Notes: generated by a model not told the origin, from the sequence alone. A DNA stretch of 64,000 nt from Halegenticoccus soli (GCF_002844195.1 NZ_PEND01000002.1:248001-312000); one strand, 5' to 3'; positions 48,174 through 52,595 are shown, counted from the stretch's first letter. A program made the numbers and translations.

Positions 48174-48851
48174 ATGTGGACCGAGGCGACGTTCCGCGAC
48201 GCGGACGACGAACCCTCGCTCGGGGCGGTTCTCACGCGGCTCAAGGGGAACGGCTGCAATCTGCTCGTGACCGGCACCGTCTCGGAGGCGGTCTCCGTCA
48301 GGGCGACCCGGCGGCTGCTCGGCGCGCCGACGGAACGCCGCGAACGGACCGTCGTCCTCACCGGTTCGTCGATTGACATGATCGAGGAACGCCTCCCCGG
48401 GGACGTGACGCTCGACGACCCGCACGTGCGGCTCATCGATCAGCGCAACGGGGAACGATCGGCGACGCGTCGGGAGGCCGAGGCCGAGACGATCGCGGAA
48501 GGCGCGTCCCTGGACCGCCTCCGGTGCCGACTGGTTCGGACCGTCGGCGACCTCGACCACGGATCGCTGTCGCCGGCCGAACTCCGCCTGTCGCTGGACT
48601 CTCTCGGAATCCTCCTCGAACGGCACGACGAGGCGGCCGTCGTACAGTTCCTTCGCGTGCTCACCGCGCTGGTCCGCGGAGTGTGCGGCATGGGCCACTT
48701 CCACCTCCCCCTCCCCGACGGCGATCCCCGGGTCGAGTCGCTGTCGCCGCTTTTTGACGCGCGCGTCGAACTCCGGCAGCGCGGATCGATGCGGCCGGAA
48801 CAGCGCTGGCACGTGCCCGAGTACGGAGTCACCGAGTGGGTAGCCGTATGA
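48174..48851 (+). CDS. DUF7504-like protein, partner of the CHAT protease
   Basis: A 225-residue haloarchaeal protein. The first half has an alternating beta/alpha pattern (GCNLLVTGTVSEAVSVRATR, then TVVLTGSS), like a degenerate RecA/KaiC core without a Walker A motif. The second half is helical. I recognise it as DUF7504 from memory; its function is unknown. Its stop overlaps the start of the CHAT protease gene (ATGA), so the two are translated together and probably act together. Confidence 0.7.
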   Translation: MWTEATFRDADDEPSLGAVLTRLKGNGCNLLVTGTVSEAVSVRATRRLLGAPTERRERTVVLTGSSIDMIEERLPGDVTLDDPHVRLIDQRNGERSATRREAEAETIAEGASLDRLRCRLVRTVGDLDHGSLSPAELRLSLDSLGILLERHDEAAVVQFLRVLTALVRGVCGMGHFHLPLPDGDPRVESLSPLFDARVELRQRGSMRPEQRWHVPEYGVTEWVAV

Positions 48852-50998
48852 CGGGCGACTGCGGGCGCCTCCCTGCGGTTCGGTACGCGCCGCTCGAAGA
48901 CCGTCCGGGGATCCGCGTCGTCGACGACATCGAGAACGCCCGCTTCGAGGTGTACGCGGCGGAGCCGACCGAGCCGACCGACGCGTCGCCCGACGACTTT
49001 CTCTTCCCGGTCGACCTCGCGGTCGGCCTCGAAACCTCCGCCCTCGCGTTCCCGAAGCTCACCACCGTCGTCGTCCGCGACGCCGCGGGGCGAACGCTCT
49101 CGCAGTCGTCGAACCGCGAGGATGTCGCGCTGGATCCCGGCGCGTACGACGTCGAGATCACCACCGCGCCGGTGAAGCTGTACGTCGCCGTCGAGAGCGC
49201 GATCGCCGTCAGGTACAACGAGGGACGGACCGTCCTCGAGTTCGCCGACCGGACGCCCGCGACCGTCGGCGTCCGCTCGTTCCACGAGAAGCCGGCGGGG
49301 ACGGTGCGGACGCCGGCGGATCCGAAGCCGCTGATGGACGCGGTGTCCCTGCTCGGGTCGGCGCTCTCGACCACCTCCGCGGAGCGGTCGTTCCCGACGT
49401 TGCGCGGGCACCCCCCGCTGTTCGAACTCGGCGACGGCTTCGAGGCACCCGCCCACATTCACCCCCCGGACACGGGGATCGAGATCGTCCTCCCGGAGCG
49501 CCGGGAGGCCGTCTTCGCGTCGGCGTCGCTCGCGTACTACCTCGGCGCGGCGGTCGTTCCGGGCGACGAGCCGCGGCTGGTCGGCGAGGGGTGGAGCCAC
49601 CCGCTGGCGGACGGGTGCGACCTCGAAACGGGGCTCGGCCGGACGCTCAGGCAGACGTTCTTCCTCGACTGTCTCACCCGGACGGAGGGGTACTACCCCG
49701 TCGATCTCCACGAGCGGTCCGTCGTCGAGCGCGCGTTCGACCTCGACTTCCCCGCGCTGTACGACCTGCCGCCGGCCGAACGACTCGGCGAGTACCTCTC
49801 GGTTCCGTTCGACGACCTCGAACCGCACCTGCCGGAGTGGGGCCTGACGACGGACGTCCGCCCCACTCCGGACAACGTCGAGATGCTGCCGTTCCTGGCG
49901 AACGACCTCTCGCTCATCCGGTGTCCGTCGCGGGCGGCGGAACCGCCCCGACCCGAACCCCAGGCGGTCACCGACTTCCTCCGGAGCGAACCGTCGGCCG
50001 CCGTCGGGGACCTCCTCTGGAGCGAGGGGGCGGCCGACGGGGACTTCCTCCGGAGCGCCGGCGACGCGGCCGCGCCCGACGCGGACAGCATCGTCCAGCC
50101 GCGGTCGGCGGAGACGATGGAGCATGCGTGGGTCGGCGACGGCTACCCGCTCGGAACGAGCAAGGCGACGCCCGAATCCTACCGCCGGCGGCTCACGCGC
50201 GACGTGACGGAGCGGACGAGCATCGAGATCACGATCGTCTGCAACGACGAGGAGATGCGCGAGGAGGGAACCGTCGCGGAGCTGTACGGGCAGCGCGACC
50301 TCCTGCGGTTCGACGTGGAGATCCACTACGACCTCTCGGCCGACGAACTGGAGGCCGTGCTGCGCGAACCGACGAACTTCCTCCACTACATCGGCCACGT
50401 CGACGACCGCGGGCTCCAGTGCTCGGACGGCTTCCTCGACGTCCGCTCGATGGAGGGCGAGGTCGCCGTCGAGTCGTTCCTCCTGAACGCCTGCCGATCC
50501 TACCGGCAGGGCCACGCCCTCATCGAACGCGGCAGCTACGGCGGCGTCGTGACGCTCGCCGAGGTGGCGAACGTCCCGGCGACCAGGCTGGGTCGGATGC
50601 TGGCCCGACTGCTGAACTGCGGGTTCAGCCTGCGCTCCGCCATGTCGATCGCGAAGGACGAGACGCTCGTCGGATACCAGTACATGGTCTTGGGAGACGG
50701 TGGAACGGTGTTGTGTCAGAGCGAGAGCGGCATGCCGGCGCTCATTCACGTCGAATCGATGCCGGAGTTAGATCAGTATCTCGTGCGGGCGACGTATTAC
50801 CCGTCGGAAACCCACGGTCCTGGTTCGTTGGTTATACCTTACATTAACGAGAAACCGGTGTATTACCTCGGTTCAAAGACTATCGGTCCGTTCGAGGTTT
50901 CAACCGATCAGCTGATCGAATTTCTCGAACTCGAATTGTGCCCTGTAGTCGTCGATGGCCAATTCACTTGGTCAGATGAATTGTTACGGGATTTGTAA
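48848..50998 (+). CDS. CHAT/caspase-like protease of a haloarchaeal two-gene cassette
   Basis: A 716-residue protein. The region around residues 430-640 looks like a CHAT (caspase-HetF-TPR) peptidase. The catalytic His is probably His517 in HYIGH, followed by VDDRGLQCSDGFL, and the catalytic Cys is Cys549 in LLNACRS. The first 380 residues form an unrecognised domain; residues about 376-420 are a linker with three repeats of the form GDFLRSE. It overlaps the DUF7504 gene by four bases. The last 250 bases drop in GC and change codon use. The CHAT call rests on motif order only; no fold search was possible. Confidence 0.72.
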   Translation: MTGDCGRLPAVRYAPLEDRPGIRVVDDIENARFEVYAAEPTEPTDASPDDFLFPVDLAVGLETSALAFPKLTTVVVRDAAGRTLSQSSNREDVALDPGAYDVEITTAPVKLYVAVESAIAVRYNEGRTVLEFADRTPATVGVRSFHEKPAGTVRTPADPKPLMDAVSLLGSALSTTSAERSFPTLRGHPPLFELGDGFEAPAHIHPPDTGIEIVLPERREAVFASASLAYYLGAAVVPGDEPRLVGEGWSHPLADGCDLETGLGRTLRQTFFLDCLTRTEGYYPVDLHERSVVERAFDLDFPALYDLPPAERLGEYLSVPFDDLEPHLPEWGLTTDVRPTPDNVEMLPFLANDLSLIRCPSRAAEPPRPEPQAVTDFLRSEPSAAVGDLLWSEGAADGDFLRSAGDAAAPDADSIVQPRSAETMEHAWVGDGYPLGTSKATPESYRRRLTRDVTERTSIEITIVCNDEEMREEGTVAELYGQRDLLRFDVEIHYDLSADELEAVLREPTNFLHYIGHVDDRGLQCSDGFLDVRSMEGEVAVESFLLNACRSYRQGHALIERGSYGGVVTLAEVANVPATRLGRMLARLLNCGFSLRSAMSIAKDETLVGYQYMVLGDGGTVLCQSESGMPALIHVESMPELDQYLVRATYYPSETHGPGSLVIPYINEKPVYYLGSKTIGPFEVSTDQLIEFLELELCPVVVDGQFTWSDELLRDL
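49973..50057 (+). repeat. 16-bp repeat within the CHAT gene linker
   Basis: GACTTCCTCCGGAGCG occurs at 49973-49988 and 50042-50057, with a variant GACCTCCTCTGGAGCG at 50009-50024. They encode DFLRSE, DLLWSE and DFLRSA in a flexible linker. The spacing is 36 and then 33 bases, in frame. Confidence 0.6.
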
Positions 50999-51000
50999 GA

Positions 51001-51132
51001 TTAGGGGCCATTAATCGTCGAAGCGTTATTCGCAGCCACCGCCCCCGCCTGCGACAGCAACAGCATCGCCGTGAACAGGACGCCGATCATTCGTGGATTC
51101 TCCCGGAGGAACGCCTTCATATCTTGACTCAT
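51001..51132 (-). CDS. 43-residue hydrophobic peptide (DUF7503-like)
   Basis: A tiny gene encoding MSQDMKAFLRENPRMIGVLF and ending ANNASTINGP. A basic N-terminus, one hydrophobic helix (16-33) and an AVA-A site make it look like a signal peptide with a ten-residue mature tail, or a single-pass membrane peptide. I recognise the family as DUF7503 from memory. It lies tail to tail with the CHAT protease gene, two bases apart, with its own TATA (CATTTATG, 51157-51164 minus). It could be a substrate, an inhibitor or a signal for the protease. Confidence 0.65.
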   Translation of the reverse strand: MSQDMKAFLRENPRMIGVLFTAMLLLSQAGAVAANNASTINGP

Positions 51133-51156
51133 GCTTCGGTTGAACATTCTCCGGTT

Positions 51157-51164
51157 CATAAATG
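51157..51164 (-). promoter_or_regulatory. TATA box of the DUF7503-like peptide gene
   Basis: On the minus strand CATTTATG is centred about 28 bases upstream of the ATG at 51132, which supports expression of the small gene. Confidence 0.55.
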
Positions 51165-51274: not shown

Positions 51275-52595
51275 ATGCAAGAACGGGACGTCGGCGCGCT
51301 TTCCACGTTCAGGCGGTTCTTCGCGCTCCGCGGGGACGTGCTCGTCCTGTCGGTCGCGATGTTCGCCTTCAGCCTCGGCTTTCAGATGACGGGGCGGTAC
51401 ATGCCGCGGTACATGAGCCTGCTCGGCGCGGGTCCCGTGGCGATCGGCCTGTACGGGACGGTGGGGAACCTCATCAGCGCGGTCTACCCGTACCCCGGCG
51501 GCGCGGTGTCGGACCGCATCGGCTCGCGCGTCGCGCTCACGCTGTTCGGCCTCGCCTCGACCCTCGGGTTCGTCGTCTGGTTCTTCGCCGACGTCTTCGG
51601 AGTGGTGACGCTGCCGGGGCTCTCCGTCGGTCCCCCCCGGCTCGACCCGGTCGTCCTGCCGGTCGGAATCTTCCTCGGGCTGTTCCTCTCGCAGGCGTGG
51701 AAGTCGTTCGGCCTCGGAGCCACGTTCGCCGTCGTCAAGCAGAGCGTCCCCCCCCGACCGCCTCGCAACCGGGTTCGCCAGCACCGAGACGTTCCGCAGG
51801 ACCGCGTTCCTGCTCGGCCCGCTGCTCGCGGCGTTCCTGCTCGCGTCGTTCCCGTTCGAGCGGGGCTTCGGCTACGTCCTGCTCGTCGCGGCGGGGTTCG
51901 GGCTCGCGGCGACCGTCGCCCAGCACGTCCTCTACGACTCCTCCGGGGACTCCCTCGGCAAGTCGTTCGCCGGCGTCGGCGCGATCGCGGACGACATCCG
52001 CGGGATGCCGGCCCCGCTGCGCCCGCTTCTCGTCGGCGACACGCTCGTCCGGTTCGCCAACGGGATGGTGTACGCCTTCTTCGTCATCGTCGTCGTCGAC
52101 TTCCTCGCGGTCGGCGTGACCCTCCCCGTCGTCGGGCGGCTCAACCCCGACGCGTACTTCGGGGTCCTGCTCGCCATCGAGATGGCCGTCGCCCTGGTCG
52201 TGATGGCCCCGATGGCGAAATTCGCCCAGCGCGTCGGCCTGAAGCCCGTCGTCGCGGTCGGGTTCGCCGTCTACGCCGCGTTCCCCCTCTTGCTCGTCAA
52301 CGCGCCCGCGAACGCCGCCGTCCTCGCGGTCCTCTTCGCCTTCTCAGGGCTCCGGTTCGCCGGCCTACCGGCGCACAAGGCGCTCATCGTCGGCCCCGCG
52401 GAGCGGAACGAGGGCGGCCGCGTCGTCGGCTCGTACTACCTGCTCCGGAACGCGATCGTCATCCCGAGCGCCGCCCTCGGCGGCGTGCTCTACGACGCGT
52501 CGCCGACGCTCGCGTTCGGTGTGGCGACCGCCGTCGGCCTCCTCGGCACCGGCTACTTCCTGGCCTTCGGCGAGGAGTTCGAGGCGTACGCCTGA
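51275..52595 (+). pseudogene. MFS transporter split by a frameshift in a C8 tract
   Basis: A major facilitator superfamily protein of about 440 residues in two frames. The first part (MQERDVGALSTFRRFFALRG) carries the first membrane segments and AVSDRIGSR, the A-loop motif. Reading breaks at C8 (51748-51755) after FAVVKQSVPP. Removing one C restores VPPDRLATGFASTETFRRTA and the frame runs to the stop at 52593-52595, with the remaining helices intact. The substrate is unknown. It may be inactive, phase-variable or a sequencing artefact. An alternative start is ATG at 51200, which lies in the AT-rich stretch. Confidence 0.75.

Follow-up and report, generated by a model that had tools for sequence, protein, structure and literature searches.

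Does the predicted caspase-fold protease in this haloarchaeal locus serve defence or cell death within a cassette of three genes, or does it belong to a smaller unit with a different task? The locus lies in a 64,000-nt stretch of the Halegenticoccus soli genome (NZ_PEND01000002.1:248001-312000; hereafter the window, in whose coordinates all positions are given). A preliminary description presented it as a compact cassette of a DUF7504-like partner, a CHAT-like protease and a 43-residue peptide. The locus contains the following features:

48174..48851, plus strand: DUF7504 gene, 225 aa (Pfam PF24336, E = 1.3e-49), RecA fold of the KaiC/FlaH kind in which the P-loop is degenerate; optional as a neighbour
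48848..50998, plus strand: gene of the predicted CHAT (clan CD) cysteine protease, 716 aa (model with pLDDT 88, Foldseek, Pfam CHAT in relatives)
48881..49927, plus strand: N-terminal region of the protease, residues 12-360 (DSSP of the model and conservation)
50120..50695, plus strand: predicted CHAT catalytic domain, residues 425-616 (conservation, model, Foldseek)
50396..50398, plus strand: predicted catalytic His517, directly after strand 509-515 (sequence, conservation, model)
50492..50494, plus strand: predicted catalytic Cys549, directly after strand 541-547 (sequence, conservation, model)
50696..50998, plus strand: C-terminal domain of the protease, residues 617-716 (divergence and third-position GC)
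51001..51132, minus strand: DUF7503 peptide gene, 43 aa, convergent with the protease gene (PF24335, E = 6.5e-23)
51091..51099, minus strand: (H/N)P(R/K) motif, here NPR, bordering the hydrophobic stretch on its N-terminal side; proposed site of cleavage or docking (motif counts, logo)
51004..51009, minus strand: C-terminal Gly-Pro of the peptide (the usual ending of the family; synonymous codons vary)
51155..51162, minus strand: TATA-like element TTTATGAA, located 23-30 nt before the start codon of the peptide gene (sequence; AT-rich profile of 126 homologues)

The layout given in the preliminary description was recovered. The word ATGA at 48848-48851 ends the first gene and starts the second, and HYIGH and NACRS correspond to residues 513-517 and 547-551 of the 716-residue product. 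The 43-codon reading frame (51132..51001, minus strand) stands tail to tail with the protease gene and ends 2 nt from its stop codon. The TATA box was found in an AT-rich stretch, and the same AT-rich upstream pattern was observed in the 126 aligned homologues of the peptide gene. Scans for sigma-70 promoters and against Rfam gave no match. The locus features are not a product of chance, since H517 and C549 are both present in 151 of the 158 complete relatives, and the convergent linkage to DUF7503 described below is without exception. We must also note a frameshift in the MFS gene further downstream, located at or close to eight consecutive C (51748-51755); in a close relative this gene is intact, and the frameshift in the window is either a sequencing error or real.

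The 716-residue protein is predicted to be a CHAT cysteine protease, with the caspase fold of clan CD. Its AlphaFold2 model, built from a 66-sequence alignment, reached a pLDDT of 88.4 and a pTM of 0.89. The best PDB matches found by Foldseek were separase, gingipain R, the SAVED-CHAT filament and TPR-CHAT (E between 1e-7 and 1e-4), which places the model within the caspase-haemoglobinase fold. The His follows strand 3 and the Cys follows strand 4, in H..GH and NAC.S-type motifs; in the model, these are the strand positions of clan CD. The CHAT-like identity that had been proposed from the order of His and Cys was thus upheld by the fold and by the conserved dyad with its surrounding motifs, as well as by Pfam CHAT, matched by 9 of 18 aligned relatives (best E = 2.1e-5; the window protein itself had no Pfam match). 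H517 (in H-Y/F-x-G-H) and C549 (in L-N-A-C-x-S) were kept in 73-74 of 81 family members drawn from H. soli and related genomes. Five members of the family are encoded by the H. soli genome, and one paralogue scored above the Pfam CHAT cut-off. Peptidase C25 was matched by 1 of the 18 aligned members.

Residues 12-360 form a beta-rich domain followed by an alpha/beta domain, without a named relative; a sequence search of solved structures returned weak gingipain C-terminal matches to this region and nothing else. Asp26, Arg186 and Arg278 are invariant there, even in catalytically dead paralogues. Residues 617-716 are the fastest-evolving part of the protease and show low GC at third codon positions across the family.

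The window peptide belongs to DUF7503 (80.5 bits against a cut-off of 27). Genome-wide in 40 relatives, all 42 DUF7503 genes were convergent with, and located just downstream of, a gene of the protease family. At 159 protease loci we found 128 DUF7503 peptides, all 128 on the opposite strand and downstream, and 125 within 250 nt. Among the 126 close pairs, 52 overlapped, 43 were 0-10 nt apart and only 12 were separated by more than 50 nt; a stop word (TTAA, TTAG, CTAG or CTAA) was shared by 36 of the 52 overlapping pairs. Approximately 12% of the dyad-bearing protease copies had no recognised adjacent peptide. A relaxed search added remote peptides, in which HPx and the terminal Gly-Pro were kept. 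The link between protease and peptide, first offered as a hypothesis, now has far stronger support than the preliminary description could have had, and the tightness of the pairing suggests joint work in everyday regulation. Protease copies apparently stand in tandem on the same strand at three loci, and in some of these the peptide follows only the last copy. One relative showed an unusual expansion to 14 protease-family matches, several copies having odd or missing peptides.

The convergent 3′ ends have a composition of their own. In peptide-bearing protease genes, third-position GC was ~ 0.88 in the gene body and fell to ~ 0.6 over the last 100 codons, and the decrease was smaller in peptide-less protease genes. 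Runs of at least four A or T rose several-fold in the last ~ 100 codons (50696-50998 in the window; 126 related loci). In the simplest reading, the low-GC region possibly represents terminators embedded in the opposing gene, and is in part an effect of composition. As a result of such embedding, the transcripts of the protease and the peptide would probably overlap.

Most DUF7503 peptides have 43-44 residues, arranged in a constant order: an acidic variable head, the segment Y-L-x-x-(H/N)-P-(R/K)-M-x-G-(V/A)-L-F, a hydrophobic stretch ending with Q-A-G-x-A-A-A, an uncharged tail and the terminal Gly-Pro. The distance between the R/K residue and the C-terminus is 28 or 29 residues in 109 of 112 peptides, and Gly-Pro closes 124 of 128. 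In the aligned homologues, the terminal Gly uses all four of its codons and so does the terminal Pro; because these codons vary freely, the constraint acts on the protein, and a cause at the DNA level (a terminator or antisense motif) was rejected. Antisense coding overlap was rejected as well, since most pairs overlap by stop codons at most. A translation-arrest peptide with a SecM-like ending was set aside because its transcript carries no further gene downstream that it could control. In the Halorubrum peptides, synonymous changes dominate most of residues 1-35 and 41-43, and residues 36-40 are hypervariable. Judging by these alignments, the peptide is under protein-level selection and has a fixed architecture.

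The occurrence of the peptide was compared with that of the catalytic dyad on a tree of 162 proteins. One clade of seven lost both catalytic residues, and the peptide accompanied 133 of the 151 dyad-bearing proteins and none of the 7 dyad-less ones; as the dyad was lost once on the tree, this association amounts to one event. The dyad-less clade keeps N-terminal invariants, including Asp26, Arg143, Arg186 and Arg278, and it is possible that these paralogues are pseudo-protease regulators. Loci L119, L123-L127 and L129 hold monophyletic paralogues that have kept the N-terminal domains but neither the His/Cys dyad nor the peptide gene; each of their genomes also carries a copy predicted to be active. 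With the other domains removed, the divergence of the peptide gave partial correlations of 0.27 with the CHAT domain and 0.20 with the N-terminal beta domain, values that are confounded by shared ancestry and suggestive only. There was no positive partial correlation with the C-terminal domain, which is saturated, and the distances do not support this domain as the partner of the peptide.

The reading we favour, tentatively and at somewhat below an even chance, is that of a core haloarchaeal two-gene module in which the peptide would be the dedicated substrate or regulator of the protease, with recognition by way of the (H/N)P(R/K) region. The hypothesis of the preliminary description, in which the protease would cut the peptide or be triggered by it, is thereby still the leading one. 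A cytosolic caspase-fold (CHAT) cysteine protease would be paired with a dedicated membrane-inserting micropeptide, DUF7503, sitting in the membrane with its N-terminus inside. The protease would recognise the peptide, most likely by cutting or docking at (H/N)P(R/K) at the inner membrane face. As substrate or regulator, the peptide would couple protease activity to the state of the membrane or of export, and the output would be regulatory, not suicidal. The convergent, overlapping 3′ ends would hold the pair together and probably allow mutual regulation of the transcripts, and the P-loop-less, KaiC-like DUF7504 protein would be an optional add-on in some lineages. Several points weigh against this model. 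The positive-inside rule by itself leads one to expect basic residues at the edge of a membrane, and cleavage after such residues is not common to all known CHAT enzymes. Two remote peptides carry Glu at the R/K place; given that the remote peptides vary there, we do not claim cleavage after a basic P1 residue as proven. The dyad-bearing copies without a recognised neighbour and the single origin of dyad loss also count against it.

The conserved ending of the peptide could have another role, that of a dedicated inhibitor whose fixed-length tail and Gly-Pro would fill a pocket of the protease and keep it inactive until membrane insertion or degradation of the peptide. The invariant C-terminus and the strict spacing suggest C-terminal recognition, the tail is nearly charge-free (0.9% acidic and 1.0% basic residues, compared to 16% and 8% in the proteases), and the peptide is absent where the dyad is dead. 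However, a tail behind a signal-like hydrophobic stretch would as a rule be extracellular and so separated from a cytosolic enzyme, and predicted active protease copies without the peptide exist. We consider an inhibitor unlikely.

A secreted signal would make different use of the same tail. Signal peptidase would cut after A/V-x-A and free a nonapeptide, e.g. N-x5-PGP, for which the protease or its N-terminal domain would be the intracellular receptor, in a Phr/AimP-like manner. Positions -3 and -1 are A/V and A in nearly all aligned peptides, which fits signal peptidase I. Moreover, the precursor of 43-44 residues has constant parts on both sides of an uncharged and hypervariable tail (105 different tails among 112 peptides), ending at the stop codon. 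Such a signal is nevertheless distinctly unlikely: the remote peptides that keep HPx and Gly-Pro have no A-x-A-like site, generic signal peptides need not conserve residues so strongly, neither an uptake system nor an HTH receptor accompanies the module throughout, and the changes in the tail fit near-neutral drift under a length constraint. Still more doubtful is a full system of archaeal peptide signalling, in which a species-specific, Gly-Pro-ending DUF7503 peptide would be exported and the caspase-fold protease would be the matched intracellular responder, turning cell density or the membrane-export state into regulated proteolysis.

The distribution of the protease family bears on the proposed role in defence or cell death. 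The family was present in 28 of 40 near relatives and, with the class sampled evenly, in 179 of 194 haloarchaeal genomes and 59 of 66 genera. Beyond the class, only four of the genomes drawn had it, from one other family of the phylum; their gene content suggests that they are Methanocella-like. The non-haloarchaeal loci L211-L214 have UPF0146/RimI-like genes in their vicinity; no DUF7503 peptide was recognised at them, and at L212 the dyad is lost. Across many genera the family recurs at two chromosomal positions: next to an AstE/AspA-like gene, which is the position in the window, and next to SHMT, tbsP and ycaO genes. The protease family is core and mainly vertically placed, with paralogue expansion; it is not a mobile cassette. 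No relative of the protease was detected among 2.9 million viral contigs scanned, PADLOC gave no match for the DUF7504 protein, the protease or the peptide, PHROG gave none for the protease or the peptide, and no variable defence-island context was seen at the protease loci. The breadth, the conserved positions and the absence from viral contigs disfavour a mobile defence system, and together with the PADLOC and PHROG results they led us to reject defence as the default reading, against the preliminary description.

Bacterial gasdermins are activated by CHAT proteases, and CHAT proteases also act in CRISPR defence. The small, hydrophobic peptide could accordingly be pictured as a cell-death or defence effector that the protease would cleave and that would then permeabilise the membrane, much as activated gasdermins do but in miniature; for a near-universal, vertically placed and multi-copy module with the search results above, this is highly improbable.

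The upstream gene matched DUF7504 with 169.5 bits against a cut-off of 27, and the model of its product (pLDDT 87) had KaiC and FlaH as best PDB matches. The proposal that the partner has no Walker A motif was borne out for the window protein, and the P-loop residues are replaced in protease-linked copies generally. Another H. soli member keeps a Walker A motif (GPPLTGKR) and a weak KaiC match. The peptide was present at 73 of 78 named loci and a DUF7504 gene was detected at 34; none was detected near the other 44, which include most Halorubrum orthologues, and DUF7504 is for this reason regarded as accessory. Seven loci have the gene of a HalX response regulator in the neighbourhood of the protease; in most of them it adjoins the DUF7504-protease-peptide set, a possible two-component link. 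The comparison of synteny did not sustain DUF7504 as an obligate partner, and its result is the one that the preliminary description had named in advance as refuting the cassette: a three-gene cassette with the DUF7504 protein as required sensor is the least probable of the readings, for which the ATGA overlap in the window and a DUF7504 gene just upstream on the same strand in ~ 35 loci can be cited, and against which stand the 44 loci and the 11 DUF7504 copies of the H. soli genome, most of them not beside a protease. The functional unit is probably the protease with the peptide, not the three-gene cassette.

The Pfam families of the peptide and of the upstream gene, DUF7503 and DUF7504, are both listed without function, and their descriptions do not mention the link to the protease. 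A few database records of the protease say "CHAT domain-containing" or "caspase family" protein, and most are hypothetical. Our literature search found no paper on DUF7503, DUF7504, or a CHAT protease in haloarchaea or Haloferax volcanii. The enzyme class is already known; the pairing of protease and peptide, and the peptide itself, are new, as they appear in no paper we found.

Among known systems, separase and gingipain R (clan CD), which both cut after basic residues, are the best fold matches of the protease model, but there is no sequence-level family match. In bacterial gasdermin systems, the gene of a CHAT-type protease adjoins that of a membrane-acting partner, as may be the case here; however, the DUF7503 peptide is not a gasdermin and has only 43 residues, and the module is core and not part of a defence island. 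No gasdermin-family gene stands beside the protease, the Pfam assignments of its two window neighbours being DUF7504 and DUF7503 only. The Phr/AimP precursors of Firmicutes and their phages have ~ 43 residues, a signal-like stretch and a short variable C-terminal tail with constant last residues. DUF7503 resembles them in precursor length, in the signal-like stretch and in the variable tail with a constant end, whereas its partner is a protease instead of a TPR receptor, the genes are convergent, and the hydrophobic part is strongly conserved.

A precedent for a regulatory CHAT protease is, by analogy, Csx29 of the type III-E CRISPR system, which cleaves the sigma-factor inhibitor Csx30 at one site (PMC10028731). 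Alike are the CHAT fold, the His/Cys dyad, the combination of one protease with a dedicated partner and, in our preferred model, the regulatory output. In contrast to the TPR-CHAT protein Csx29, the haloarchaeal protease has a different, non-TPR N-terminal region, and there is no CRISPR effector in the cassette; in place of Csx30, the partner is a 43-residue hydrophobic peptide with a convergent gene.

Extracts of H. volcanii show strong caspase-like activity, which is Asp-specific and inhibited by zVAD; such activity was also reported in archaea outside haloarchaea, and the study calls for identification of the protein behind it in H. volcanii (PMC3615174). That activity leads one to expect a caspase-fold enzyme in haloarchaea. 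DUF7503 and DUF7504 both occur in H. volcanii, where a copy of the protease is expected because every DUF7503 gene in the genomes checked accompanied the protease. The link is weakened by the activity outside haloarchaea. Nevertheless, the family is a candidate for the long-sought archaeal "caspase", and with a near-universal caspase-fold family whose Pfam partners occur in H. volcanii, the old caspase question becomes testable by gene deletion. Apart from the caspase question, a caspase-like protease so regularly accompanied by a Gly-Pro-ending peptide of 43 residues points to a new mode of regulating such proteases.
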